Under the pieces are notes generated by a model. That model was given only the letters and a program-made list of their open reading frames with translations. It was not told where the DNA came from and did no database searches. A stretch of 64,000 bases of DNA, from NCBI GenBank assembly GCA_040756055.1, contig JBFLZR010000006.1:62001-126000 (forward strand). Reading direction: 5' to 3'. The translations under genes and the position numbers were made by a program. This document shows, piece by piece, positions 5,976 to 60,384 of this stretch; position 1 is the stretch's first letter, and the number at the start of each line of letters is the position of its first letter. Origin of the DNA: Candidatus Zixiibacteriota bacterium. GTDB lineage: Bacteria; Zixibacteria; MSB-5A5; GN15; FEB-12.

Positions 5976-7259
5976 TCAGCCGACCAGTACCTTTTCGAGT
6001 CGTTCGGTCAGGTAGTCAATTTCCTTTTCCGTGATTATCAGCGGTGGCGACATACGAATAGTATGGCCGTAACTGTCGTTGGCCAGAACGCCGATTTCAA
6101 GCAGCTTGCGGCAGAATACCATAGCATCGCCGTTCTTGACCTCGATACCGATGAACAGCCCGGTGCCACGGACTTCCTTTACGTGCGGTGAGCGAGAAGC
6201 TATGTCAAGAATACGCTCTTTGAGAATCGCGCCCATGGCGTTCGAGTTTTCTACCAGCTTTTCTTCGACAATCACGTCGATAGCCGCGATACCGGCCACG
6301 CAGGCGAGCGGGTAACCACCGTAGGTGGAGCCGTCCTTGCCCGGTTGGAATGCCATATCCATCAGCTTGGTGTTGGTGACGAAAATCGACAGCGGAACCA
6401 GACCGCCAGAGATAGCTTTGCCGAGAATGACGCCATCGGGGATTACATTCTCGTGTTCGAAGCAGAACATCTTTCCGGTGCGTCCCAGACCGACTTGAAT
6501 TTCATCGAACATTAAAAGCAGGTCGTGCTGGTCGGCCAGTTCGCGGAGACCTTTCAAAAAGCCTTTCGGGGCCGGATACATGCCGCCTTCACCCTGCATC
6601 GGCTCAACCAGAATACCGCAGGTGTTGGGAGTGATAGCCTTTTTGACGCCTTCGAGGTCGCCATAGTCAACCATCTTGAACCCGGGAGTGAGCGGTCCGA
6701 AACCTTCTTTGTATTTCGGGGTGGGGGAGAAGGAAATCGTCGTTATCATGCGGCCGTGGAAATTACGGCTGAAAACGATTACTTCCTGTTTGCCATCCGG
6801 GATCCCCTTGGCTTTGTAGCCGTAATAGCGGGCCATCTTGACAGCGGTTTCAACAGATTCCACGCCACCGTTTTTGGGCAGAACCTTGTTGCCGTTATCG
6901 CCGAAGCGTGGTCCGAGCTGCGGAACGAGCTGGGCGGCCTTCTTCAAAAACAATCCAAGAGCGTCGGTATACACGACATTGGAGATCACCGAACCATATT
7001 TGCCCTGCAGGGCATCTATCACGGCTCCTACGATTTTCGGATGATGGTGACCCTGGTTGGCGGCGGAATAGGCTGCCAGACAGTCGAGGTGTTTCATGTC
7101 ATCGAGGCCATACAGCCAGGCACCTTCGGCTTTTCTGACGACCAGCCCCAAACGGCCATAGTGATGGGCGCCAAAAGTGCTCTCAAAATTGATGATCTGG
7201 TTGTCGGGTATCTGTGATAATCCGAGTCCGGTTTTATTGATGGTGCTAACGTTGTTCAT
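5976..7259 (-). CDS. rocD: Class III PLP-dependent aminotransferase, ornithine aminotransferase-like
   Basis: A complete 427-residue class III aminotransferase. The PLP lysine is in LGKAISGG, the cofactor-aspartate segment is LLLMFDEIQVGLGRTG, and the family GSTYGGYPLAC block is present. Overall order and length match ornithine-oxo-acid transaminase, which converts ornithine and 2-oxoglutarate to glutamate semialdehyde and glutamate. Lysine, acetylornithine or 4-aminobutyrate transaminases are the main alternatives, so the substrate is not certain. AAAGGAGATACCA precedes the ATG. It stands alone, with its own promoter and a shared terminator. Confidence 0.9.
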   Translation of the reverse strand: MNNVSTINKTGLGLSQIPDNQIINFESTFGAHHYGRLGLVVRKAEGAWLYGLDDMKHLDCLAAYSAANQGHHHPKIVGAVIDALQGKYGSVISNVVYTDALGLFLKKAAQLVPQLGPRFGDNGNKVLPKNGGVESVETAVKMARYYGYKAKGIPDGKQEVIVFSRNFHGRMITTISFSPTPKYKEGFGPLTPGFKMVDYGDLEGVKKAITPNTCGILVEPMQGEGGMYPAPKGFLKGLRELADQHDLLLMFDEIQVGLGRTGKMFCFEHENVIPDGVILGKAISGGLVPLSIFVTNTKLMDMAFQPGKDGSTYGGYPLACVAGIAAIDVIVEEKLVENSNAMGAILKERILDIASRSPHVKEVRGTGLFIGIEVKNGDAMVFCRKLLEIGVLANDSYGHTIRMSPPLIITEKEIDYLTERLEKVLVG

Positions 7260-7300
7260 TGGTATCTCCTTTATTTTAAGAGCAAATCAGGACGAATTTA

Positions 7301-7329
7301 TATATATGCCTGAAGATTTTCTGCGCCAA
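7301..7329 (-). promoter_or_regulatory. Putative sigma70-type promoter of the aminotransferase gene
   Basis: On the minus strand TTGGCG (7324-7329) and TATATA (7301-7306) are separated by 17 bases, about 42 bases before the start codon. The -35 box is imperfect. An inverted repeat ATAAAC-GA-GTTTAT lies further upstream near 7395-7408 and could be an operator; nothing else is seen in this spacer. Confidence 0.4.
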
Positions 7330-7486
7330 GATAACAGTTTAAATTTAAAACTCAAGGGGTATTTTGGCGGCCATTCGTCCACTTAATCCATTAGTATAAA
7401 CGAGTTTATGGATGAGGAAGTTTCATGGCGGATGTGTCAAAAGAAGGATTATTCGGCCTCTGTTAAGTTGTTGGCGGATAAGCTCT

Positions 7487-7519
7487 AAAATGAAAAGGCC
7501 GCATTCGGAGAATGCGGCC
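7487..7519 (-). terminator. Intrinsic terminator of the bifurcating-complex operon
   Basis: Stem GGCCGCATT (7497-7505) / AATGCGGCC (7511-7519) with a five-base loop. Read on the minus strand it is followed by TTTTCATTTTA, a good U-tract, 25 bases after the stop codon of the large GltD/NuoG-like gene. Confidence 0.85.
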
Positions 7520-7544
7520 CTGGTAGTCTGAATCGTACTGTCGT

Positions 7545-10500
7545 CTAAACGTTGATCAGTTTCGTTCGGTCGGCGATGCGCGAGTCAATTTCGATCACTC
7601 TGGTGAAGTCTGCCGATGTTGTCGAGACTTCCGCCGAGTAGAGAGTGAAATGCGCTTTTCCGTCCGAAGTCGGGAATGAGGCGCTTATCGGCACCGTGAT
7701 CCCGAATTTCTTTTCCAGGAAAGCGATCTCGCTGACCAGTTCATCGAAACCGTTGATCGCCCGCTTATAGCCGAGGCAATTCAGCAGTGTTTTGAACAGG
7801 TCGATGTTTGTTTTGCCGGTCATTGGCGCGCCAATCGGGTTGGTGTGCTGTTTAAGCCCCGCCCAGTTGGTAAGGTGTCCCCGGTTCTCCAGATAAGAGG
7901 AGAGTGGAAGGAAAACATCGGCCATCTGAACGGTTTCGGTTTTGAACAGATCAGCCACCACGAGGAAATCGAGTTTATCGACAAAGGCGTTAAACTCGGC
8001 ATCCTTGGCCGGATTCTCCCCAAGAATGATGGCAGCGCGAATCTTGTCTTCGCGCATCTTTTTGGAGAGATTCGCGCCGGACTCTTTCATGGTCTTGGCC
8101 AGGTCGGTTTGCCACAGAGCGCCGACATCTTTCAGGGCCTTTTCGTTCGACGCGCTTACGCCGCCGGGAAGCAGGTGCCGGTCAAAACCGACCATCTGCA
8201 TGCCGGTATAGTTGCACTGACTGCTGGTCAGAACCAACCCGGAGCCTTCAACACCCACCTTACCGAGCATCAGCAGAAGAGTAATCAGGGCCTTAAGCTC
8301 ATTGTTGGAGCGGTCGATGCGGCTGTCGAGGTTGTAGTAGGCGACGAGCTTCTTTGATGGATCAGCGAGCAGATTGGCTACCGCGTCGATAGTCTCAACA
8401 GCCACGCCGCAGACGGAGGCAGCTTCGTCGACATCTGTCTTAGCCAATTCTTGCCTAATCTGTTCGAAATTGGCTGTACGATTTTTGATGAAGTTCTCAT
8501 TGACCTTGCCGTTCTCAATGAGACGCGCCATTACGGCGTTCAACAATATGGTCGAGGTACCACGGCGCGGGTCTGCCCAGACAGTGGCGTAATCAGCGAG
8601 GTCGATTTCGCCGGAATTGATGACCACCGAGGGAATACCTCTTTTGATTCTCCGCTTGAGTTTCCATCCGAGCACCGGGTTCTCGCTGGTCGGGTTGCCG
8701 CCGAGGAAGAGATACATGTCAGCGTTAGCGGCTTCATCGCCGTTCACCGTGGCGGCAGTGTAGCCAAGCATGTCGTCGAGCGCGTGGCTGGCGGGATCGG
8801 TCGTCATCTTGTGAAAAGATGTCGTGTTATTAGTCCCGATTGCCGCGCGCGCGAGCATACCTGCCAGATACAATTCTTCGTTGGTCAATTTCGGCGATGC
8901 CGCGACGAGCGTCTGGTCGCGATCGTTGTCCTCGAACACTTTTTTGAAACCTTTGGTAACGGCGTCAAAAGCTTCTTCCCAGGTCACCTCGACGAGTTTA
9001 TCGCCTTTCTTGACCATCGGTTTGGTCAGACGGCTCCCGTCGAGATAGTGCCCGTACCCGAAGCGTCCCTTGACGCACAACTCGCCGTGATTGGGCGAGG
9101 CATCGGGCGGCGCGCCGGTGACGAAGAACAAGTCGGGTGTTTTGTGATTGATGGTGATGTTACAACCCACCGAGCAGTAGTTGCAGATATTGTAGGTTGT
9201 TTCCATCTTCCATGGTCCGACGCGGCGGAACGGCATCTTTTCGTTCAATGCGCCGGTCGGGCAGACATCGATACAATTGCCGCAAGAGACGCAGTTGGTC
9301 TCGTGCAGGGCTTTTTCGAGAGCCGGTTTGACAATGGTTTTGAAGCCGCGATTCACGAAGCCCAGCGCCGAAACGTTGAGTATTTCACTGCAAGTCGATA
9401 CGCAACGGCCGCACCGGATACACTTGTTGGAGTCGATCTTAATAAACGGGTGCCGGGTATCGACTTTGTACTTGCTGTATGCTCCAACGAACCTCGTTTG
9501 ATCCACGCCGTACTCAGAGCAATAGTCCTGGAGTTGGCACGAGAGAGCAACATCACAGCCGCACTCGGCACATCGGAGCGACTCGGTCATAGCCATTTCT
9601 TGGGTGAAGCCGGTTTCGACTTCATCGAACGTCCTGATGCGCTGATCAACTGTCAGTTCGGGCATATGGAGGCGCTGGCTGGTGCCGATATCGGGAAGGT
9701 CCTGAGCCGTCATCTTGTGGAAGTTGTCGCGGCGGCTCTCGAACCGTTTGCCGATCGGAGTGATAACATTTTCACGAATGTATTTGTCAATGGCGTAGGC
9801 GGCTTTGCGGCCCGCCGCGATAGCATCGATAGCATCGGCCGGTCCGGTGACAACATCACCACCGGCGAACACGCCGGGGCGGTCGGTGTCGAAAGTGCCG
9901 TCTTTAGCGATAATTGTTTTCCACTTGGTGAGTTGAATCTTCTGGTCGGCGCTAACGCTATCGAGGTCAGGTTCCTGCCCGATAGCCGATATAATCCAAT
10001 CAGCTTCGATTGTGTACTCGGAACCGTCGATTACCACCGGGCGACGGCGGCCGGATTCATCGGGGGCGCCCAATTCCATGCGGATACAATCCATGGACAC
10101 CATGCGACCATCGGCCGTGTTCACCTTTACCGGCGCGGCGAGAAATTCCATCTTGACGCCCTCTTCTTCAGCGGCGACGATTTCCATTTCGTTAGCGGGC
10201 ATCTCTTTGCGGGTGCGGCGATAGAGGAGAACCACCTCGTCGGCCCCAAGGCGCAACGATGTGCGAGCGGCGTCGATAGCGGTGTTGCCGCCACCGACCA
10301 CCACAACGCGGCCCTTGATATCCGGGTTGGTTTTCATCTCCACCTGGCGAAGGAATTCCACGCCGGAGAGGACACCCTCGACCTCTTCGTTCTCAACGCG
10401 CATCGGTTTTCCGACCTGTGCGCCGAGACCGACAAAGATCGCCTTGAAGCCCTGTTTGAAGAGGTCGTCGATGGTAAAGTCTTTGCCGAGAGTCTTGTTG

Positions 10501-47398: not shown

Positions 47399-50300
47399 CT
47401 ATTGGCCCGCATCAAAGGATTTATCGGGATACGGCGGCGCCTGAGGGACCTCTACCGGATTCAACCGAATCTGCTCGGTTAAGTACTCAATTGCCGCTTT
47501 CAGTTGAGCATCCTCGCCCTCAAAAGTGGCGTGCGGCAGGTTGTCTACCACGATATCCGGTTCAACCCCGTATCCCTCGATGAGCCACTCACCTTCCGGT
47601 CCGTAAACGCCGGACTCGGCAGCCGAAGCGATTCCTTTGTCGACCAGCAGGTTATTATATGACAGCCATATCTCGCCCCCCCACGTACGCGTGCCGATAA
47701 TTTTGCCCAGCCCAAATCGCCGGATACCTTCCAAAAACAACTCTCCATCCGACGATGTCCACTCGTTACATAGCACCGCAATGTGGCCGTTGAACGCAAG
47801 CTGCATATTTGAGTAAGGGACCCCAATCCTCGACTGCCAGTAGGCCCATGATTTTCTGAGTAAGGTGGTGATAATCCAGCTGTCGATCTGACCGCCGTAA
47901 TTGTGCCTCATGTCTATAATTAGCCCCTTGCGATTGAAAACCGGGTAGAAATCGCGAACCCACTGACCATAGTCGCTCGTCGCCGTCTCGCGCAGGTGGA
48001 CATAGCCAATTTCATTGTAGCTCATGTCTTCTACTTCAAGCCGCCTCGTGTATTCCCAGTCGCGGTAGCGCAGGCCACGGGCCTCGTCAACGGATATTGG
48101 CTCCACGATAACATTACGTTCCTGTCGCGATTGAGGCGTCACGACCGTCAACAATACCTGTTTGCCGGCCATCCTGCGAAGAGGTTCCTCCAGACACGTA
48201 AACGACATGGTCGGCACACCGTTGACCTTCGTTATGACATCGCCAATGGAAACACCGACGTTGGGGTGGGCAAGTGGCGATAGAAACTCCGGCTGCTGCG
48301 GGTCGCTACGATAAATGTAATCCACCTTGAAACCGCCGGCCGCCTCGCTGCGAGTCGTTACTGCTCCCAGAAATGACGCAGCGATATCATCGGGTCCCGT
48401 TCTCACATCGCCGTCCCAGACATAAGTGTGTAGGGCCGATATTTCGCCGACCATTTGCCCCAGAAGGTCACTGAGTTCCCAGCGATCGGTAATGCGGCTG
48501 ACCAGCGGAAGGTATTTGTCATGCATCTTAGCCCAGTCCACACCGTGCATGCCGGGGTCATAGAAGTAATCACGTTCCATGCGCCAGGCATCCGTGAACA
48601 TCTGTCGCCATTCGTGGGCCGGATTAATCGAAAATGCCCAATCCGACAAGTCCAGCTTCGATTTGCCCAGGTCGAGATTGGATGTCCCCTGTGAGGAGGT
48701 TACGTAGAGATTTTTGTCTTTGCGGATCAACATCCGCTTGCCGTCTGCGGATAGCTCGAACGCGCCGACATCTTCCGCCAGCGTTTTGACTTCGGCATTA
48801 TCGTTTTTCATCTCGATAGTATTCAGGCGGCGTTTGCCGCGCGATGTATTATCCCATGAAAGCCAGTAGAGTTGCTCGTCGTTTACCTGCAGGCTCGAGT
48901 AATTCCCGGCGGGTACGGGCGTCTCCATCACACGCTCGAGAATCCCATCGAAGTCTATCGTGACTCCCCCCGCCGAATCTGACCTGCCTTTGTCGGCTTC
49001 CGGTTCGGTTTGTTTCGGCGTTAGCTCGTTATCCGCCTCAAACGGTGAGCGAAGTCCTTTTGTTAGAGGCAGCATATAGATCTTCGTCATCTGATCGATC
49101 AGCGGGAAGGGCTGGTTGAGGTCCCAGACATTGGCGACAATCGTGTTGAAGTCTCGATCCGACAGGAAGTAAAGCCACTTGCCGTCGGGACTCCAGGCCG
49201 GGTCGTGGTCGAGGAAACGATCCGTGGTCACGGGGATCGTTTTTTTTCCTTCTATATCGTAAACAAAAATCTGTCCGAGGAAATTATGCGCGCCTTTGAC
49301 AAAAGCGAGATAGCGGCTGTCGGGCGACCACACGATACCTGAATATTCCGCGGTGATGGAGCTGTCCACAAGAATTGTTGCCCCGCGCTCGATATCATGA
49401 ATCCACAGTTTCTGAGCCTTATCGTCGAAGGCGAGGAGTTTTCCGTCAGGCGACGGGATACCGTCGAATCTGAACACCGTGCCGTCGCTTGTTATTTGCT
49501 TCGGCGCCCCCAACCCGTTGGCGGCCATACTCCAGAACTCGAGCTCGCCCGAGGCGTCATTTAACGCCACAACAGTTTTGCCATCCGGCATAAATCTGGC
49601 GCTGCGATAGCGGATGCTGCTCTCGTGAGTGGCCTCGACCAGTCTTCCTGCCTTGCGGGGTACCACGAAGACGGCACCTCTGGCGGTCATTACAACGTGC
49701 TCGCCGTCAGGGGAAAGGTGAGCCGCTGTCAGATAATCCAGAGGTTCATCAATCCACCTTTCGCGCATCTGGTCAAAGTCGGATGCCAGCGTTATGTCCA
49801 GCTTGCGGTCAATACCATCGGCAATCGTATACCGGTGAATGTCCGCTCCCAATTGATAGACTACTCTGCCATTGGACAAGGAGGCCGATTGTATGTCCCA
49901 GCCGACGTGTTGCGTGTGCTGTTTGAGGCCACCGCCGCTGCTATCCATGGACCAGATGTTCATGGTGCCGTCGCGGTCACTGAGAAAATATAACCTTCCC
50001 TCATACCACATGGGATTGGCGCTCGTTCCCGGGTAATCGGCTGTCAGCGCAATAGCTTCCGGCTGGTCCGCGGAAAACTTCCAGAGATTCTGAGCCGTGC
50101 CGCCTTTGTAGCGCTTAACATAACTTCCCTGAAACGGTAACCGCGTAAAATAAAGTGTCTGCTCGCTGTCATCGTAACAACCCTGAGCCGCTTGACTCAG
50201 GGGAATAAGCTCATGCTGCCGAGTCGCGATGTCTACTTCTATCAACTGTCGGTTGGGCAGGGTCGAGTAGTTGAGGGTCACGCACAGGACCTTTCCCGAT

Positions 50301-50677
50301 GGTGACCAGCCGGCGACCTCGGCCCGTCGGCCGAAATAGGTCAGACGGGCAGGAAGTCCCCCTGCCAGAGGCATCACGAACACATCATTCACGCCTTCGT
50401 ACCTCCCCGCGAATGCCACCATCCGACCGTCCGGCGATATCGACGGTTGGGTTTCCAGCCCCGGATGCGTGGTCAGGCGCTGTGCCACTCCGCCCTCGGC
50501 ACCGACCTTCCACAGATCGCCTTCGGCCACGAAGACGATAGTCTCGTTGTGAATGGCCGGCTGACGGTAATATCCGACGCGAGTTTGGGCGGCGCTCTCG
50601 AACTCTTTAGCGGACACGGAAACCAGACCGCTAATTAATAGCGCTATTGTGTAACAAACGGCGAACAGTCTTTTCAT
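47399..50677 (-). CDS. Tricorn-type exported protease
   Basis: About 1092 residues started at the ATG with TGAGGAAAATC upstream; a second ATG lies four codons earlier. A signal peptide (about 1-23) is followed by two beta-propellers with many SPDG strands (QPSISPDGRMVAFAG, IVWSPDSRYLAFVKG), a Glu/Asp-rich linker near 555-580, a helical domain, a PDZ domain (VGVSIGDVITKVNGVP) and the C-terminal S41-like catalytic core with the serine in NEWTSSDGELFLEG and GTRTWGGE. Tricorn proteases cut oligopeptides; exported bacterial homologues act in the periplasm. Its promoter is divergent from that of the DUF4412-like gene. Confidence 0.94.
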   Translation of the reverse strand: MKRLFAVCYTIALLISGLVSVSAKEFESAAQTRVGYYRQPAIHNETIVFVAEGDLWKVGAEGGVAQRLTTHPGLETQPSISPDGRMVAFAGRYEGVNDVFVMPLAGGLPARLTYFGRRAEVAGWSPSGKVLCVTLNYSTLPNRQLIEVDIATRQHELIPLSQAAQGCYDDSEQTLYFTRLPFQGSYVKRYKGGTAQNLWKFSADQPEAIALTADYPGTSANPMWYEGRLYFLSDRDGTMNIWSMDSSGGGLKQHTQHVGWDIQSASLSNGRVVYQLGADIHRYTIADGIDRKLDITLASDFDQMRERWIDEPLDYLTAAHLSPDGEHVVMTARGAVFVVPRKAGRLVEATHESSIRYRSARFMPDGKTVVALNDASGELEFWSMAANGLGAPKQITSDGTVFRFDGIPSPDGKLLAFDDKAQKLWIHDIERGATILVDSSITAEYSGIVWSPDSRYLAFVKGAHNFLGQIFVYDIEGKKTIPVTTDRFLDHDPAWSPDGKWLYFLSDRDFNTIVANVWDLNQPFPLIDQMTKIYMLPLTKGLRSPFEADNELTPKQTEPEADKGRSDSAGGVTIDFDGILERVMETPVPAGNYSSLQVNDEQLYWLSWDNTSRGKRRLNTIEMKNDNAEVKTLAEDVGAFELSADGKRMLIRKDKNLYVTSSQGTSNLDLGKSKLDLSDWAFSINPAHEWRQMFTDAWRMERDYFYDPGMHGVDWAKMHDKYLPLVSRITDRWELSDLLGQMVGEISALHTYVWDGDVRTGPDDIAASFLGAVTTRSEAAGGFKVDYIYRSDPQQPEFLSPLAHPNVGVSIGDVITKVNGVPTMSFTCLEEPLRRMAGKQVLLTVVTPQSRQERNVIVEPISVDEARGLRYRDWEYTRRLEVEDMSYNEIGYVHLRETATSDYGQWVRDFYPVFNRKGLIIDMRHNYGGQIDSWIITTLLRKSWAYWQSRIGVPYSNMQLAFNGHIAVLCNEWTSSDGELFLEGIRRFGLGKIIGTRTWGGEIWLSYNNLLVDKGIASAAESGVYGPEGEWLIEGYGVEPDIVVDNLPHATFEGEDAQLKAAIEYLTEQIRLNPVEVPQAPPYPDKSFDAGQ

Positions 50678-50739
50678 GATTTTCCTCATATAGTTGGAGC
50701 CAATGGAGGCATTTGCTTCGGTATCAATTGTCGTATACG

Positions 50740-51696: not shown

Positions 51697-51724
51697 TTGA
51701 CAAAAAGGACAAAAAAGTTATCTT
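51697..51724 (+). promoter_or_regulatory. Putative promoter of the RiPP-like cassette
   Basis: TTGACA (51697-51702) and TATCTT (51719-51724), 16 bases apart. Transcription would start near 51731, giving an about 235-base leader that opens with a hairpin. Confidence 0.6.
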
Positions 51725-51732
51725 ATTGTTAA

Positions 51733-51758
51733 GTCCTCCCGGTACCGCCAGGGAGGAC
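51733..51758 (+). promoter_or_regulatory. Hairpin at the start of the cassette transcript
   Basis: Stem GTCCTCCC (51733-51740) / GGGAGGAC (51751-51758), loop of ten bases, with no T-tract after it. Placed almost exactly at the predicted transcript start, it would shield the 5' end of the mRNA; less likely it ends the upstream gene's transcript. Confidence 0.45.
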
Positions 51759-51965
51759 ATTAGCACAAGAGGGAAAAGAACTTAGCCGTTTCTGGCGCCT
51801 CACTTCGCCAGGCTAAGAGCTTGGATGAGCAGCAGATAGTAAGCGTCAAACTAACCCGTATCATCAGAGTACATACCACATAGGTAATGGCTGTTTTTAC
51901 ATATTTTTCTGTTTGTTCGCAGAGAGATGAATGGGAATCCCAAACGATCTTAAGGAGGTGATTTG

Positions 51966-52085
51966 ATGATCTTTTTAATCGACCCGACCATGGTTGGCAA
52001 GAAGTGCCCGAGCTATGAACCGCCGGTTTGCAGCCCGAAATATATTCCGCTCTACGGTATCGATCCGATTCTTCCGCCGGAGTGA
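51966..52085 (+). CDS. Candidate RiPP precursor peptide, 39 residues
   Basis: A short gene with a perfect 11-base Shine-Dalgarno TAAGGAGGTGA (51951-51961) ideally placed before its ATG. The 39-residue product has nine Pro, three Tyr (17, 26, 30) and two Cys (14, 22). The first 13 residues (IFLIDP early, KK at 12-13) may be the leader. The rest has two like units: Cys14 followed by PSYEP (15-19), and Cys22-Ser followed by PKYIP (24-28), then LYGIDPI and a PPE end. Two radical SAM/SPASM enzymes and an exporter follow on the same strand. That this is the substrate is inferred from context; I do not recognise a known precursor family. Confidence 0.8.
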   Translation: MIFLIDPTMVGKKCPSYEPPVCSPKYIPLYGIDPILPPE

Positions 52086-52180
52086 TGATTAAACTACAGG
52101 TAACCTGTCTTGCTTGGTTTTGAAGCGGACGGTTGCCCCGGATAACGATGTCGGATGTCGGCGAATGCCGGCCTCCGTTT

Positions 52181-52212
52181 ATGGGGCGCGCCATACGCGC
52201 CCCATAATTTTC
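52181..52212 (+). terminator. Attenuator-like hairpin between precursor and maturase genes
   Basis: Stem ATGGGGCGCG (52181-52190) / CGCGCCCCAT (52196-52205) with loop CCATA, then AATTTTC. The T-run is short, so it may terminate only part of the transcripts, giving more precursor mRNA than maturase mRNA. It could also stabilise the 3' end of a processed precursor message. Confidence 0.6.
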
Positions 52213-52235
52213 AGCCAAACTAATAGAAACTAAAA

Positions 52236-53579
52236 ATGCCTAAGAAATCCCTTTATAACCACTTTCAGCGATTCAGCGAAGAGTATTACATAGCCTACAA
52301 CGCCCGTTCCGGAGCCGTGGCGCTAATGACCCCCGAAAATTACGAGGTCTACGAAAGCTTGCTCGATAAGTTCGAGAATGGTCTCGAAGACCTCAGTGAT
52401 GAGGAGCGGAAATTACTCAAGCAACTGGAATACGGCAAGTTCGTTTGCCCGGATGATTATGACGAACTGGCCGCGATAAAATTTGAACACAATATAGGTC
52501 GCTACAATATCTCTGAGCTCGGTCTTGTCATAGCCCCCACGATGGCGTGTAACATGGCCTGTGAATATTGCTATGAGCAGAACAAGAGTGGCCGCATGCA
52601 GCCGGAAATAGTGGAAAGCCTGGTGGAGTTTGTTAAGAAACGGGCCAAGGCACTTGGGAGTCTCAGTGTGACCTGGTACGGCGGAGAACCGCTTCTGGCC
52701 ATGGATATCATAGAAGACCTGTCGTCGCGATTTATCGAATTCAGCAAGGAGTACCAGTTCCACTACACTGCCTCAATTGTGACAAACGGTTATCTGTTGA
52801 CCCCGCAGACAGTCGATCGTCTTCGCGAGTTGAAAGTGGTCGGCGGACAGGTAACTCTCGATGGCCCCGCCGAACAACACAACACGAAACGGCCCCTGAA
52901 AAACGGCAAAGACAGTTTTTCCACGATTATCGAAAATTTGAAATACGCCATGACCCGTCTGGGAATTTCTATCCGGGTCAATATTGACAAGAGCTTTTCA
53001 GCTCAAACCATTCAACAGCTCTTGACGGAACTCAAGCAGGCCGGATTACATGAGCGAGTGCCGATCAATTTCGGACACCTGGAAGCGTCAACCGAAGTCT
53101 GCGCCAATATCGCCGAAGCCTGCTACGACAATACGAATTTCTCGGCGGTCGAGACTGATTATTATCGTCTGCTTCTGGCGAATGGCTTTATGATTCAAAA
53201 AATACCGTCGCCCACACCCGTCTGCTGCATGGCCCAAATTGTCAATTCATTTGTCGTTGACCCGCTCGGTGACCTGTACCGCTGCTGGAACTATGTGGGC
53301 AATCGCGAAAGGTGCATGGGGAATATCAAAGACGAAATCGACTTCCAGCACGCGAACTTCAGGAGACTGTTTAAAGTGGATCCTTTCGAAGAAGAAACTT
53401 GCCGCTCGTGCAATCTGCTTCCCATCTGCATGGGAGGATGCCCGAGTCGGAGGGCTGACCGTGGACTTTCAGGTGAACAGGTCTGCGAAAGCTGGAAATA
53501 TAATCTGGAACCTATGTTGGAGATAATAGCGGCCTCGAAACAGCAAGAAATGGCGAGGTCGGCCAAGGAGCAATCATGA
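52236..53579 (+). CDS. Radical SAM/SPASM peptide maturase with N-terminal recognition-like domain
   Basis: A 447-residue radical SAM enzyme. Residues 1 to about 95 resemble the PqqD-like/RRE region of peptide maturases (YIAYNARSGAVALM, a helix, and a FVCPDDYDEL end). The AdoMet cluster motif CNMACEYC has Cys105, 109 and 112, followed by YGGEPLL at 148-154. The SPASM domain cysteines for auxiliary clusters are at 330/331, 350, 360, 389, 392, 398, 402 and 417. Such enzymes install thioether or carbon crosslinks in ribosomal peptides. It overlaps the second maturase gene by 4 bases and follows the 39-residue peptide gene by 150 bases. Confidence 0.92.
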   Translation: MPKKSLYNHFQRFSEEYYIAYNARSGAVALMTPENYEVYESLLDKFENGLEDLSDEERKLLKQLEYGKFVCPDDYDELAAIKFEHNIGRYNISELGLVIAPTMACNMACEYCYEQNKSGRMQPEIVESLVEFVKKRAKALGSLSVTWYGGEPLLAMDIIEDLSSRFIEFSKEYQFHYTASIVTNGYLLTPQTVDRLRELKVVGGQVTLDGPAEQHNTKRPLKNGKDSFSTIIENLKYAMTRLGISIRVNIDKSFSAQTIQQLLTELKQAGLHERVPINFGHLEASTEVCANIAEACYDNTNFSAVETDYYRLLLANGFMIQKIPSPTPVCCMAQIVNSFVVDPLGDLYRCWNYVGNRERCMGNIKDEIDFQHANFRRLFKVDPFEEETCRSCNLLPICMGGCPSRRADRGLSGEQVCESWKYNLEPMLEIIAASKQQEMARSAKEQS

Positions 53580-54655
53580 ACGACTTCAAATTCTACCCCG
53601 CTGCCGTGGTATGGGAAGTAACTTTCGCCTGCAATATGCGCTGCCTTCACTGCGGAACTTCCGCCGGAACCCTGCGCCCCAAAGAGCTCACAACCGATGA
53701 AGCCTTTAAACTCGTCGACGAACTGCACAGCCTCGGATGCGCTTCGATAACGATATCGGGCGGCGAGCCGCTGCTTAGAAAAGACTGGCGCGAACTGGGA
53801 AGATACATAAAATCAAAGGGTATTGACCTGTATCTCATTACCAACGGCTACGCTGTCACTGAAGATATCGTTAAGGACTTCAAGGCGGTCGGTATCAGCA
53901 GTGTTGGCGTCAGTTTCGATGGTACCGAGAAAACGCACAACTATATTCGCCAGAACGACAAGAGCTACGAGCGGGCCTTAAACGCCATGAAACTGATGAC
54001 GGCGGCAAATTTGCCCTGTCAGGCGGTTACGCAAGTTTCCAATTTGAATCTTAAAGAACTCGATGATATTCGCCAAATATTGATAGATGCAGGCTGTAAG
54101 CGCTGGAGAGTGCAAATGACCACCTGCACCGGTCGCATGCAGCGTGACCTCGTTCTCACTCTCGAAAACTACCCGGTGCTGATCGATAAGCTTCTTGAAT
54201 TCTCCAAGGACTCCAGCCAGATCCAGGTCTTTGTCGGTGAAAATATCGGCTACTACGGCTGCAAGGGCGCGCAGTTGTGGGGGAAAGATCCCTACCTCGG
54301 TTGTTATGCGGGTACAAGGATAGCCGGCATCGAGTCCGATGGCAAAGTGAAAGGCTGCCTGTCGATGCCCGAACAGTTCGTCGAAGGTAACATTCGTGAT
54401 TCATCCTTCACGGAAATTTGGAATGACCCGGATAATTTTCTATATAACCGCAAATTCACCCGCGAGACGGCTACCGGCGCGTGCCATGACTGCAGATACC
54501 TTCCGCTGTGCCGCGGTGGCTGTGCCACGACATCAGTATCGGCGACCGGTGAGAGAGCCAATAACCCTTACTGCATGTACCAGATAGAGCAGAAACAGGG
54601 AATTGAGCCGGTGGATGATGAACTCGTTTTGAGGTTGTTGGAAGATTTCCAGTAG
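53576..54655 (+). CDS. Second radical SAM/SPASM peptide maturase
   Basis: A 359-residue radical SAM enzyme without the N-terminal recognition domain. The AdoMet cluster motif CNMRCLHC has Cys19, 23 and 26; SGGEPLLRKD follows at 61-70. SPASM cysteines are at 243, 261, 303, 306, 312, 316 and 333. It most resembles the PqqE/MftC-like class in layout. Translationally coupled to the first maturase by ATGA, it probably acts on the same peptide, perhaps using the recognition domain of its partner. The order and number of reactions cannot be told. Confidence 0.92.
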   Translation: MNDFKFYPAAVVWEVTFACNMRCLHCGTSAGTLRPKELTTDEAFKLVDELHSLGCASITISGGEPLLRKDWRELGRYIKSKGIDLYLITNGYAVTEDIVKDFKAVGISSVGVSFDGTEKTHNYIRQNDKSYERALNAMKLMTAANLPCQAVTQVSNLNLKELDDIRQILIDAGCKRWRVQMTTCTGRMQRDLVLTLENYPVLIDKLLEFSKDSSQIQVFVGENIGYYGCKGAQLWGKDPYLGCYAGTRIAGIESDGKVKGCLSMPEQFVEGNIRDSSFTEIWNDPDNFLYNRKFTRETATGACHDCRYLPLCRGGCATTSVSATGERANNPYCMYQIEQKQGIEPVDDELVLRLLEDFQ

Positions 54656-54721
54656 CGCTGGCGTCAAACGACGGCTATACTATATAGATGATAAGTAACC
54701 TCCCCCGGGCAACAGGGTTCT

Positions 54722-56479
54722 ATGCTTCCAGATAAAGCTGTATTGAAACGTCTGTGGGGCTATCTTCGCCCATACTGGCATCTCCAGGTTATAACCTTCC
54801 TGGTGATGATGGTCTTGGCGGTGCTGGCGCTGGCATTGCCGGCGGCCGTTCAGTACATGATCGATGACCTGATCCCCCATCTGACCGAAACGACTCAAAA
54901 CGGTATCGACTGGACTCCGGCTCTGTGGTTCGGAGTTATTCTGATTGGTATATACTTTCTGCGGGTCGTCTTCTCGGCCATCCAAGATTACCTCGCCACG
55001 AGGATCGGAGCCTCCATAATTAACGACATGCGAACCGAGCTGTTTGCCCATCTCGAAACAGTTTCATTCCGGTTCTACCAGCAATACCAGATGGGGGAAA
55101 TCATTTCGAGAATTCTCTCGGATGTTTCCAGAATCCAGAATCTTCTGGCGGTAACCATCCTCAGGTTTCTCCAGAATGTGCTGCTTCTCTTAGGTATTCT
55201 GGTCTATCTGCTTTTCGTTGACTGGAAACTCACTCTGGTTGCTCTGGCGCCGGTTCCCTTGACGATAGTCTTTTCCAATTACTTTGGAGTTAAGGCTCAC
55301 GGAATTGCCAAACGGTTGCAGGAGACGATAGCATCTTTTCAAGGGCGGATTCAAGAATCGCTTGGCGGCCTCAGAACAGTGCGCGCTTTCGGACAGGAGA
55401 AAGCGGAGACCGGCAAAATGGTTGGCATCCTGGAGCGCCTGTGGGGCCTTTATATCAAAAACGCCGTCGTCAATTCTTTGTCCTACAACTTTGTCTACTT
55501 CCTGAACATGCTCGGCCCCGTGATTGTCCTCGCCTGGGGTACCTACCTGATTGCCGTGGGGAGTATGAAGCTGGGCGCCCTGATGGCGTTTTACATGCTG
55601 TTGGCCTATCTGTATGGTCCGGTCCAGGACCTTGCCGCGATAAATGTCAACGTACAGTCGGCGATGGCTTCGGTCAATCGCGTATTCGAATACCTCGACC
55701 TGCCTTCGGCGGTTACGCAGCCCTCGCAGCCGGTAATCCTCAAAGACGTGCGCGGCGCTATTCGCCTTGACAACGTGAGCTACCGGCACGATGGTTCCGG
55801 GTTCACTATCGAGAATCTCTCGCTCGAGATAGGCTCCGGAGAAACAGTAGCCATTGTCGGACCGTCGGGCGCGGGGAAAACCACGCTGATAAATCTTATA
55901 ATGCGTTTTTTCGACCCGGATAGCGGTATCGTGACGCTCGATGGCGTCGATTTGAAGCAAATCGACCTCAAGGCCCTCCGCGGTTACATGAGCCTGGTCG
56001 ATCAGGATCCGCTGCTGTTTAAGATGTCCATCCGTGATAATATCGCCTACGCTGACCAGAACGCCACAATGGAGATGGTTGAGAAGGCCGCGAGGATAGC
56101 CAATATCCATGATTTTGTCGTCAGTCAGAAGAAAGGCTATGATACGGAAATAGGCGAGAGGGGCGTGACTGTATCAGGCGGCGAAAAACAGCGCCTGTGC
56201 CTCGCCCGTGCTGTCCTGAATGACCCGCCGATTATATTGCTCGATGAGGCTACTTCGTCGCTCGATTCCAAATCCGAAGAGTTGATTCAGCAGGCCCTGA
56301 GCCAGCTTCTTAAGAGGAAAACCGCCGTGATTGTGGCCCATCGTCTGGCCACCGTCCGCCACGCCGACCGCATAGTCGTGATGGACAACGGCCGGATTGT
56401 TGATCAGGGAACGCACGATGGTCTGATGGTTTCCTCGATTTTATACCGCGAACTCGCCAGCAAGCAATTGCTGTTGTAG
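54722..56479 (+). CDS. MsbA-like ABC exporter of the RiPP-like cassette
   Basis: A 585-residue half transporter: a six-helix exporter domain (about 1-320) and an ATPase domain with Walker A GPSGAGKTT, Q-loop SLVDQDPLLF, signature VSGGEKQRLCLARA and Walker B PIILLDEATSSLDS. There is no N-terminal C39 peptidase, so leader removal, if any, needs another protease. The family moves lipids, drugs or peptides. Sixty-six bases after the second maturase on the same strand, it is likely the exporter of the mature peptide. No clear terminator follows. Confidence 0.9.
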   Translation: MLPDKAVLKRLWGYLRPYWHLQVITFLVMMVLAVLALALPAAVQYMIDDLIPHLTETTQNGIDWTPALWFGVILIGIYFLRVVFSAIQDYLATRIGASIINDMRTELFAHLETVSFRFYQQYQMGEIISRILSDVSRIQNLLAVTILRFLQNVLLLLGILVYLLFVDWKLTLVALAPVPLTIVFSNYFGVKAHGIAKRLQETIASFQGRIQESLGGLRTVRAFGQEKAETGKMVGILERLWGLYIKNAVVNSLSYNFVYFLNMLGPVIVLAWGTYLIAVGSMKLGALMAFYMLLAYLYGPVQDLAAINVNVQSAMASVNRVFEYLDLPSAVTQPSQPVILKDVRGAIRLDNVSYRHDGSGFTIENLSLEIGSGETVAIVGPSGAGKTTLINLIMRFFDPDSGIVTLDGVDLKQIDLKALRGYMSLVDQDPLLFKMSIRDNIAYADQNATMEMVEKAARIANIHDFVVSQKKGYDTEIGERGVTVSGGEKQRLCLARAVLNDPPIILLDEATSSLDSKSEELIQQALSQLLKRKTAVIVAHRLATVRHADRIVVMDNGRIVDQGTHDGLMVSSILYRELASKQLLL

Positions 56480-57186: not shown

Positions 57187-60100
57187 GTGCGGCGAACACT
57201 TGTCACATACAGCATAGCGATCAGCTTTACATTAATAACCATAGCGGCCTTCGCACCATCGGCCTTCGCAGCGAAAACCTGCTACGACTGCCACACCAAG
57301 GAGAAAGAAATTTACTCCAAGGTCAAGTTTGCGCACCAGCCGGTCAAAGACGAAAACTGCGAAAGCTGCCACAAACGTCACGGTTTCGCGCAGAAGCTGA
57401 TTCTTCAGGATGCCACCTCCGAACTGTGCTACAAGTGTCACGCCGATTTGAAAGAAAAATACAGCCAGGGAAGTGTCCACTTCCCGGTAGCCTCGGGCAA
57501 ATGCTGGGATTGTCATGACCCGCACGGTTCCAATGAAGCCGCCATGCTGTGGGAACCATCGCCGGACACGCCGGTGGAGCACTTCTGCCTGATGTGTCAT
57601 CAGGACAACATGGACGCCGCCCGCCAGAAGGAATTCATCCACGCTCCATACGATGGACTGGAGTGCCTGACCTGCCACGCCGCTCACAACAGTTCTAATC
57701 CGGGTCTTCTTGTCGCCGATATATTTGCCGTATGCGGGTCGTGTCATGACCAGTCCGATGAGACCTGGGCCGCGGTGCATAAAGAGCGCAACGCCGGGGG
57801 GCTGCCGTGCAGCGACTGTCACGACGCTCACGCTTCGAACGGCGAAGGGTTGCTTAACGATGACGCCCATGCCCCGTTTGCCGGCGGGGATTGCGAAATT
57901 TGCCACAGTTTACCGGATGCCAACGGAAAAGTGGCTTTTGAAGAAGGTGCTTCTCCCGGTGGATTGTGCGCCGCGTGTCATGACGATATCATCGAAAACC
58001 TTTCCAAATCTCATCCGCATCCTGCTGTGGAGGCGGACAACTGCGATAATTGCCACAGTCCTCACTCATCACGTTTTGGCAGTCTTCTGAGGGACAGCCA
58101 GGGAGCTATTTGCGGCGAGTGCCACGATGGTGTGCTGACCGGCGAAGGCCAAAAGCCGCACATGCCGGTGGTGACGGGAGATTGCAGCGGCTGTCATGAA
58201 GTGCACGGTTCAGACAACGCTGCTCTTGTGAAGGCGGATGATGCCACTCTGTGTCTTGGCTGTCATAAGGATTTTGCGCAGTCGCGCGATGCCGCCGCCA
58301 ACGTTCACGCGGCTCTGGATGACTGTCTGGGTTGTCACAAACCGCACGAGGGTATTGCTGAGAAGCTCCTCAGGGCTCCCGTCGTGGAATTGTGCGCCGG
58401 GTGCCACGAACCCGACCGCGAGGCCCTCAATGCGGCATCGGGGCACCAGCCTTACATGACCGGCGAGTGTTCCGATTGCCACCTACCGCACTTCAGCGAT
58501 ACGCCTCATCTGGTTCGCGGTGAAGGCGCCGCCCCGTGTCTGGTCTGCCACGTCGATATCGAAAAGCGGCTCAGTATGGATGTCCCGCACGCTCCGGCGG
58601 TTGATGAGTGCCAGGGTTGCCATGTGCCTCATTACAGCAAGGATAATCTGCATCTGCTGTCAGCGAGACCCAATGAACTCTGCTCATCCTGTCACGATTA
58701 TGAAAGCCTCGATCTCCAGAAAGAATTTGTACACACTCCAGCCGCGCAGGGAGATTGCGCTGGATGTCATAACCCGCACGGCGGCAACCAGCCAAAGCTC
58801 GTCACGGGTAGAATGACGAAAGTCGACGTTGGCGGTCTGATGGTCGGGCAACTTCCTAAACTCAGCGGCATTTCCGCCGACCTGTGCTACACCTGTCACG
58901 ATGATCTGAAGGAAGAGTTTCGCAGACAGAACGCTCACGCTCCAGTAGCGCAGGGTGAGTGTGATGCCTGCCACGCCGCTCACGGGTCGGATAACGTCGG
59001 CTTCGTAGTCGCGGCCGCGCCGGATCTTTGTGTCACCTGTCACGATGTCGATGATGCCCTGACGACAGCGCACGATGGATACGATATCACCACTGCCGAT
59101 TGTCTGGAATGCCACAATCCGCACATCAGCGATCAGCCCAAGCTGGTCCGCAATACGCTTCATCCGCCGTTCGCCGACAATGACTGTGGCAGTTGCCATG
59201 AGATTGGTCCCGATGGCAAGGCGGTTCTGATTGCTTCGGCCATAGAGCTGTGCAGCGCCTGCCATGAGACAGTGACGGAATCCGCTGAACTTGAGCATCA
59301 ACACGCTCCTTTTGCGGGTGAAGAGTGCGGCGCCTGTCATAGTCTGCACGCCGCCGATTACGCCGGTCTGCTCAGGTTTGAAGGAAGCAGTCTCTGTATG
59401 ACCTGTCACGAAAATATTAAAGACCAGCAACAACTGTCGGTCAGCCACCGTCCTTTTGAAGAAGGTCAGTGTCTGGAATGTCACCGTCCGCACGCATCGG
59501 CTTATCCGGGCCTGACAACCAAGCCGGCGGAAAGTTTCTGCGTCTCGTGTCACGAGGACATCAATCGTCAGATTACCGAAGGCGCCCCGCACGCGCCGGT
59601 TGCCGATGGCGACTGCGGTGCCTGCCATGTGCCTCACGCCGGCAATCAGTCCGCGCTGCTGACAACATCGAAGGTAGAACTGTGCGGGCAATGTCACGAT
59701 CTTACGGACCGCGATTTGCGCACGGCTCACAAGGGATTCAGCCTTGAGGGTGTCGATTGTCAAAACTGTCACGCCGCCCACGCCGGACCGGCCGGTTCTA
59801 AAGGACTGTTGCTGCCGGATGTGCACGTTCCGTTCGCCGATGGCGACTGTACTTCATGTCACGATGGTATGAAGGCGCATCAGTTGATCGCGCCGGTCAA
59901 TCGAGTTTGTTTTGCCTGTCACGAGGACTTCCTGGAGAGCACGGCTAATGCGGTCGTTCACGCTCCTTTGCAAAGGGAAGATGGCTGCGTTGAGTGTCAC
60001 GGGCCGCACGTTGGATATGGCTCGAAGCTTCTGTTAAAAGAGGGTATTTCGCTGTGCTTATCGTGTCACGACGATAACGAATTCAAGGGCAAGAATAAAC

Positions 60101-60384
60101 ACGCCGTAGCTTTTGAGGATTGCGGCAACTGCCATCAGCCCCACACCAGCGCCAATTCCGGTTTACTGGCCACAGCCGACATCATGGAGCTGTGCCTGAC
60201 CTGCCACGAAGGCGCTGTGGAGACGCATTATCACCCGATGGGTGTCGGCGTAACGGATCCGAGAACAAAGGAACCACTGAATTGTGTCGGCTGCCATTCG
60301 CCGCATTCGTCCGATTACACGGCGATACTGGTGGCCGAAAAAGATAGAAAGCTGTGTATCATTTGTCACACGGTGTCTCGATAA
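57187..60384 (+). CDS. 42-haem c-type cytochrome
   Basis: A 1065-residue exported cytochrome. A signal peptide (about 1-28, ending SAFAA) is followed by 42 CxxCH motifs by my count, one about every 25 residues, arranged mostly as doubled-CxxCH units such as CxxCHxPH...LCxxCHxD. Many units share HAPVA-GDC and NPHG-like spacers, so the protein is built by repeated duplication. The start is a GTG with GAGAGG 7 bases upstream. The role is long-range electron transfer in the periplasm, through the outer membrane or outside the cell; the direction is unknown. The next gene starts within its 3' end. Confidence 0.95.
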   Translation: MRRTLVTYSIAISFTLITIAAFAPSAFAAKTCYDCHTKEKEIYSKVKFAHQPVKDENCESCHKRHGFAQKLILQDATSELCYKCHADLKEKYSQGSVHFPVASGKCWDCHDPHGSNEAAMLWEPSPDTPVEHFCLMCHQDNMDAARQKEFIHAPYDGLECLTCHAAHNSSNPGLLVADIFAVCGSCHDQSDETWAAVHKERNAGGLPCSDCHDAHASNGEGLLNDDAHAPFAGGDCEICHSLPDANGKVAFEEGASPGGLCAACHDDIIENLSKSHPHPAVEADNCDNCHSPHSSRFGSLLRDSQGAICGECHDGVLTGEGQKPHMPVVTGDCSGCHEVHGSDNAALVKADDATLCLGCHKDFAQSRDAAANVHAALDDCLGCHKPHEGIAEKLLRAPVVELCAGCHEPDREALNAASGHQPYMTGECSDCHLPHFSDTPHLVRGEGAAPCLVCHVDIEKRLSMDVPHAPAVDECQGCHVPHYSKDNLHLLSARPNELCSSCHDYESLDLQKEFVHTPAAQGDCAGCHNPHGGNQPKLVTGRMTKVDVGGLMVGQLPKLSGISADLCYTCHDDLKEEFRRQNAHAPVAQGECDACHAAHGSDNVGFVVAAAPDLCVTCHDVDDALTTAHDGYDITTADCLECHNPHISDQPKLVRNTLHPPFADNDCGSCHEIGPDGKAVLIASAIELCSACHETVTESAELEHQHAPFAGEECGACHSLHAADYAGLLRFEGSSLCMTCHENIKDQQQLSVSHRPFEEGQCLECHRPHASAYPGLTTKPAESFCVSCHEDINRQITEGAPHAPVADGDCGACHVPHAGNQSALLTTSKVELCGQCHDLTDRDLRTAHKGFSLEGVDCQNCHAAHAGPAGSKGLLLPDVHVPFADGDCTSCHDGMKAHQLIAPVNRVCFACHEDFLESTANAVVHAPLQREDGCVECHGPHVGYGSKLLLKEGISLCLSCHDDNEFKGKNKHAVAFEDCGNCHQPHTSANSGLLATADIMELCLTCHEGAVETHYHPMGVGVTDPRTKEPLNCVGCHSPHSSDYTAILVAEKDRKLCIICHTVSR

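Follow-up and report, generated by a model that had tools for sequence, protein, structure and literature searches.

A compact gene cluster was analyzed on the plus strand of a 64-kb stretch of DNA from a Candidatus Zixiibacteriota bacterium (contig JBFLZR010000006.1, positions 62,001 to 126,000; this whole stretch is called the window here, and positions refer to it unless a locus is named). It encodes a 39-residue peptide, two radical S-adenosylmethionine (SAM) enzymes with SPASM domains, called SP1 and SP2, and an ATP-binding cassette (ABC) exporter. The reading that we favor, with moderate confidence and from sequence comparisons, is that the cassette makes an exported hybrid ribosomally synthesized and post-translationally modified peptide (RiPP), whose cysteines would be modified by SP1 and whose backbone would be spliced at a Leu-Tyr-Gly (LYG) site by SP2. 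The genes, the precursor family, the enzyme clades and their co-occurrence, which were established directly, are presented together with this reading and its alternatives.

The precursor gene (MIFLIDPTMVGKKCPSYEPPVCSPKYIPLYGIDPILPPE; 51966-52085, plus strand) was recognized from its open reading frame (ORF), family conservation and a profile match, and is preceded by the Shine-Dalgarno (SD) sequence AAGGAGGT (51952-51959, plus strand). A profile built from the relatives, with the window peptide excluded, had that peptide as its sole match (E 7.5e-11) when run against the 1779 frames of a six-frame translation of the window, in agreement with an earlier note on this DNA, which had described a short and well-translated peptide gene. 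In total about 59 distinct precursors of 31-48 residues were found, 48 of them near the enzymes (24 loci). They share the 7-residue start M[IVL][YF]L[IVL][DEN]P, which is MIFLIDP in the window peptide. Short ORFs with this start, mostly one to five each, were present upstream of SP1 at 24 of the 25 loci; all 50 motif-bearing ORFs (25 loci, ~740 kb counting both strands) were upstream of SP1, and a strong SD stood ahead of 49/50 family precursors. In most precursors the first Cys falls within residues 14-16, and the Cys-Cys spacing is mostly 3 (58 intervals) or 4 (25 intervals) residues; in the window peptide Cys is found at 14 and 22, with 13 residues ahead of the first. Exactly one P[LMC]YG[IVL] on the C-terminal side was found in 42 of the 48 precursors near the enzymes (X of X-Y-G being Leu in 31, Cys in 6 and Met in 5), while in shuffled peptides its count averaged 0.1 with a maximum of 2 in 2000 trials. 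The motif C-x0-1-PxYxP, which the earlier note had proposed as the one to look for, occurs in only 2/48 precursors; the conserved one, P-[LMC]-Y-G-[IVL], had been overlooked. In the window peptide it is P28-L29-Y30-G31-I32 (52047-52061, plus strand), a predicted splicease site with X = Leu, as judged from the family motif and from Nif11 precursors linked to TIGR04103 (nif11-class peptide radical SAM maturase 3).

At X-Y-G sites, of which MYG and LYG are the natural ones, the PlpXY splicease cuts out tyramine with a mass change of -135.0757 Da (PMC10533398). PlpX (IPR026482) acts with PlpY, a RiPP recognition element (RRE) protein, on Nif11 or nitrile-hydratase-like precursors (PMC11002830), and spliceotides inhibit proteases (PMC11117315). 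SP2 (359 residues, 53576-54655, plus strand; assigned from profiles, residues and a tree) is a radical SAM/SPASM enzyme in which an RRE domain is absent and the cysteines of both parts are kept and are invariant in the family (C19/C23/C26 for radical SAM; C243..G256..C261, C303/C306/C312/C316 and C333 for SPASM). By its sequence SP2 belongs in the splicease clade (TIGR04103/PlpX-type): it grouped in the tree with cyanobacterial TIGR04103 members, TIGR03913-like enzymes and two further YG-linked enzymes (support 98/91), the Zixibacterial SP2-B paralogues falling outside. Zixibacterial SP2 enzymes linked to SP1 scored 210-248 bits to TIGR04103 (131 for one contig-end fragment), whereas nearly all other SPASM proteins of Zixibacterial genomes scored <100 bits, the exceptions being G040:C60 (238), G023:C21 (206) and G023:C15 (117; G, C and L are our labels for genomes, contigs and loci). 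No precursor was seen beside the high-scoring G040:C60 and G023:C21 enzymes. The cyanobacterial members, which score 830 bits, adjoin Nif11-leader precursors ending ...PIQALYGVIWWPP...PIQPMYGIVVDTDL and ...MPLYGIPWWPPIYPTYGVVLDTTL; ...PMYGIV and ...PLYGIP are endings of such precursors. Sites in TIGR04103-linked Nif11 precursors include LYGV, PMYGI, PLYGI (L155) and TYGV, with AIYGAA/APYGLA in others. Divergent enzymes as distant as SP2 adjoin peptides with VPYGV/PPYGI (L230) and VKYGV/LKYGA (L229). At L230, from Aminicenantes, the peptide (2582-2761) carries three P-Y-G-[IV] units and lies beside a 545-residue divergent splicease-like enzyme.

From the position of SP2 in the splicease clade together with the conserved Tyr in a splicease site, SP2 is predicted to splice (-135 Da) and not to form a second crosslink (-2 Da). 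The alternative that SP1 and SP2 are both crosslinking enzymes, the former acting at Cys and the latter at a second Cys or at Tyr (C-C, C-O or S-C), was proposed in the earlier note and appears rather improbable to us. The conserved Tyr could accept a crosslink, two-enzyme sactipeptides such as thuricin CD are known (PMC12093266), and the solved structure nearest to SP2 is the sactisynthase SkfB, PqqE being the other close one. However, the X-Y-G is near-invariant and is preceded by P and followed by I/V, as it is in precursors linked to spliceases, and the profiles favored TIGR04103/TIGR03913 (234-236 bits) over SkfB (96 bits) and StsB (101 bits), the tree agreeing on the TIGR04103 side. Although thuricin CD clusters also have two radical SAM enzymes per Cys-peptide cluster, the two enzymes here come from distant SPASM groups, and the near-invariant X-Y-G sets these precursors apart. 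What stands of the earlier proposal is a RiPP cassette whose two SPASM maturases are of the peptide type, which is strongly supported; the second crosslink probably gives way to the splicing predicted above.

Several points weigh against splicing by SP2 as the favored reading. Six of the 48 precursors lack YG, and no family match to a Nif11 or nitrile-hydratase-like (NHLP) leader was obtained in the precursors. SP2 scored 232-234 bits against TIGR04103, far under the cut-off of 725, and its identity to TIGR04103 members is 32-34% versus 25-31% to other SPASM groups. No separate small PlpY-like RRE gene was seen at the loci, where the SP1 N-terminus is RRE-like. IPR026482 is taken by us to be the InterPro entry of TIGR04103, and the equation of PlpX with TIGR04103 depends on this assumption and on the precursor type. 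The residues modified by SP1 and the service of its RRE-like domain to SP2 are what we infer. Moreover, no clear XYG partner was found near the TIGR03913-like enzymes at 4/5 loci, and clade membership alone therefore does not fix the reaction. With a candidate (ACYGTP) at only 1/5 loci, these enzymes were dropped as support for XYG. That candidate, at L232, is a protein with a Cys pair and a hydrophobic segment, encoded divergently to a TIGR03913/TIGR04103-like enzyme (6506-7672, minus strand), and is possibly a protein substrate.

Instead of splicing, SP2 could carry out some other backbone or side-chain chemistry of the PlpX clade on the YG tyrosine, such as oxidation, or a Tyr Calpha-Cbeta cleavage after which a different residue is left. 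The clade may be functionally mixed, as the TIGR03913-like enzymes without a clear XYG neighbor suggest, and SP2 is divergent; nevertheless, the P[LM]YG[IV] context equals that of TIGR04103-linked precursors and of the MYG/LYG sites in the literature, and we regard this reaction as unlikely. Still further down we place a redox cofactor pathway, like that of pyrroloquinoline quinone (PQQ) or mycofactocin, in which a Tyr peptide would be converted to a small molecule; it seems very unlikely. The conserved residue is indeed Tyr, and SP2 has moderate similarity to PqqE (96 bits, cut-off 381) and to the mycofactocin maturase (TIGR03962; 153 bits, cut-off 265). Opposed to this are the Cys-rich cores, the second, RRE-type maturase, the missing C-terminal Val-Tyr motif and the number of precursors: a single genome can have as many as 8 precursor matches, which lie on several contigs and vary in their cores.

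SP1 (447 residues, 52236-53579, plus strand; assigned from profiles, residues and a model) consists of an RRE-like N-terminal domain followed by radical SAM and SPASM domains. Its cysteines C105/C109/C112 (radical SAM) and C331..G345..C350, C389/C392/C398/C402 and C417 (SPASM) are kept and invariant in the family, and its gene shares a 4-nt overlap with that of SP2; the coupled pair of intact SPASM enzymes described in the earlier note was thus found as stated. In the AlphaFold (AF2) model (mean predicted confidence, pLDDT, 89), the N-terminal domain (~residues 1-92) is beta3-alpha3 with the shape of an RRE. Among solved structures, that of CteB, which forms thioethers, is the nearest both in sequence (1.3e-26) and in fold (1.5e-19), with an alignment that spans most of the N-terminal domain. 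This architecture is related to that of CteB/PapB, which is relatedness and not membership. SP1-A sequences form a single clade (SH-aLRT 100). In bits, SP1 scored 373 for the Clo7bot maturase TIGR04334 (cut-off 600; positive control L086, 774), 311 for TIGR04463, 232 for CefB, 216 for FlmE/OhkG, 202 for geopeptide, 146 for PapB (cut-off 340) and 101 for the SCIFF maturase TIGR03974 (cut-off 425), all below cut-off. The maturases of proteins scored lower, with 96 bits against a cut-off of 349 for TIGR03942 (anaerobic sulfatase) and 88 against 453 for TIGR03906 (quinohemoprotein), and the view of the earlier note that the enzymes are maturases of peptides rather than of sulfatases or dehydrogenases is borne out. 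SP1 is predicted to be a Cys-directed peptide maturase on the Clo7bot/CteB side.

The Clo7bot system (TIGR04333/TIGR04334, with the related TIGR04463 and CefB) resembles the present one in giving the best match of SP1 and in its equally short, Cys-rich precursors, which start with MK[FYW][IVL]V.P and thus have a beginning shaped like the M[IVL][YF]L[IVL]DP found here. Among peptides beside SP1 relatives, many share the start MK[FYW][IVL][VIE].P, with TIGR04333 matches for the ones on the Clo7bot side. That peptide model gave no match to the window or family peptides, though positive controls did match. Probably the N-terminal heptad is a recognition segment for the whole SP1 enzyme group, as we infer from these shared starts. 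Unlike the present system, Clo7bot has no P-x-Y-G site, and no SP2-like enzyme stands beside the relatives examined. The ranthipeptide/SCIFF enzymes (CteB, PapB) share the RRE-like, radical SAM and SPASM parts, and differ from SP1 in the scores given above and in that a thioether is only predicted here. A literature search on the Clo7bot, geopeptide and OhkG names found no characterized system. On the SP2 side, spliceotide systems resemble the cassette in the clade of SP2 and in precursors that here end P[LMC]YG[IVL]; they differ in that the precursors here are short with a short leader and a Cys-rich core, and in the second SPASM enzyme present here, no separate PlpY having been seen. The top NCBIfam match of SP2, the GDL-motif family TIGR03913, scored 236 bits, yet under its cut-off of 592. 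Filing the system under Clo7bot, SCIFF, PapB, GDL, mycofactocin or PQQ was rejected, as the scores are below each cut-off. Since it falls below every specific curated cut-off tested and combines traits of the splicease and the Cys-rich SPASM RiPP, both of them known kinds, it is regarded as a variant and not as a member of a known family. The new RiPP class suspected in the earlier note is better described as a new hybrid of those kinds.

Across genomes, SP1 orthologues are 50-66% and SP2 orthologues 61-72% identical and the order of the pair is kept, SP2 directly following SP1 at 24/25 loci, while at the remaining locus the contig ends. Among 61 whole genomes, SP1, SP2 and the precursor were all present in 24, an identical genome set for each, and 36 had none of them; a fragmented genome (G058) had a precursor near a contig end without the enzymes. 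The co-occurrence of SP1/SP2 with the precursor is significant (Fisher p 4e-16, 61 genomes, shared ancestry ignored), and the conservation of the short peptide upstream of homologous pairs, which the earlier note had set beforehand as a check, was seen in 24/24 enzyme-bearing genomes. It is hardly credible that the short ORF is no substrate and that the enzymes act on some other protein, as some splicease relatives may do, given the strict co-occurrence and synteny of precursor and pair, the strong SD and the conserved motif. When SP1 relatives were sought in one genome per species (84,980 species), all those of >=55% identity among the best 80 matches belonged to Candidatus Zixiibacteriota records or to two bins with loose labels (FCB group, Calditrichaeota). 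The next relatives among these 80 were <=39% identical and came from Clostridia, Coriobacteriia, Aminicenantes, Desulfuromonadales, archaea and others, and no SP2 match was found near them in the surrounding DNA covered.

Precursors also occur far from the enzymes. In G040 the precursor matches are spread over five contigs, and in G057, which has two enzyme pairs, one precursor is ~1.07 Mb away from the nearer pair on the contig. P-x-Y-G was present in 11/11 distant precursors read (nine loci, L241-L249), all with an SD and either remote from the enzyme pairs or on pairless contigs; these stand-alone precursors are probable trans substrates. At 11/25 loci a gene for a B12-binding radical SAM enzyme stands directly after SP2, ahead of the exporter where the sequence covers it (e.g., L044:13113-14540). 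The enzyme matched no NCBIfam family above cut-off, and its position suggests a third, optional modification; the window cassette is without it.

The same genome carries a second SP1+SP2 pair (L005, contig C9, 4965-7626) with the peptides MLFIIEPISGKGPNKPCPFDCIRLFVIQPPE and MIFIIGPSSGKGPNGPNCPTDCALLCGTYCPTLCKPVIYPIIGIMLPPDD, which have no YG. It was ruled out as the same system (SP1 identity 32%, SP2-B in its own clade, peptides without YG) and is a separate type-B RiPP system. Generally, the short Cys peptides at SP2-B loci lack YG, and many of them end in PPW. At the type-B loci of related genomes (L061-L074), peptides such as MKIIQKSKETRKPCFCYLQLWIIYPVW occur, often in two copies between both enzymes, and no NCBIfam match was found for type-B peptides among those tested. 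At L040, an extra SP1 copy without a following SP2 is flanked by YG-less peptides (MDYLIDPKNFETSLTCCTPQGCYLYAFPCLAR and relatives), and the SP2-linked SP1 copy has a peptide with PLYSIPP. Based on the YG-less peptides at the SP2-B loci and at the SP2-less SP1, YG therefore tracks SP2, L040 being a single case.

In the pathway proposed for the favored splicing reading, substrate binding, both chemistries, export and activity are predictions. The RRE-like domain of SP1 would bind the N-terminal segment MIFLIDP, and SP1 would modify Cys14 and Cys22, most likely by forming thioether crosslinks, either ranthionine or sactionine, with a change of about -2 Da apiece. SP2, co-translated with SP1, would remove the tyramine of Tyr30 to leave a Leu-derived alpha-keto-beta-amino acid. 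The product, perhaps a protease inhibitor by analogy with other spliceotides, would be exported by the MsbA-like ABC protein (585 residues, 54722-56479, plus strand; assigned from profile matches). The PF00664 match of this exporter starts at residue 25, and domain profiles showed no C39 peptidase domain in it, as the earlier note had said; the exporter was present at 18/25 type-A loci. To a fuller picture we give about even chances: tyramine splicing and Cys crosslinking would be combined on one very short precursor, the SP1 RRE would deliver the substrate to the RRE-less splicease, and scattered precursor genes would be served in trans by one pair, sometimes with the B12-radical SAM enzyme. 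If true, a splicease system would act on precursors of 31-48 residues in combination with Cys chemistry, and its ketoamide-bearing, conformationally locked peptides could be attractive as protease-inhibitor scaffolds and as a compact backbone-editing tag. By mass spectrometry, -135.08 Da plus steps of -2 Da would be expected. In the literature covered by our search there was no RiPP work on Zixibacteria, of which a peptide-maturation repertoire is brought to light here.

Upstream of the peptide gene, a promoter-like site of the sigma-70 type (TTGACA-16-TATCTT; 51697-51724, plus strand) is a consensus match only and coincides with the start of the interval (51697) marked in the earlier note; across the region 10 matches of the TTGACA/TATCTT type were found versus 5.3 expected by chance. 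The 150-nt spacer between the precursor and SP1 (folding z = -4.9) contains a 12-bp G+C-rich hairpin followed by TTTT (52179-52211, plus strand), found by folding of the spacer. It is not in the list of the terminator scan, of which the criterion is 5 T in 8, and is plausibly, even probably, an attenuator yielding more precursor than enzyme. The neighboring genes (an S41/TolB-like protease, 261- and 152-residue proteins and a multihaem cytochrome) were rejected as cassette parts, their synteny being found in three genus genomes only. The first of them encodes a 1096-residue protein with a TolB propeller and an S41-type C-terminal processing peptidase (tricorn-like; 47399-50689, minus strand), and the cytochrome (1065 residues, 57187-60384) has 23 matches to a doubled CXXCH domain model.

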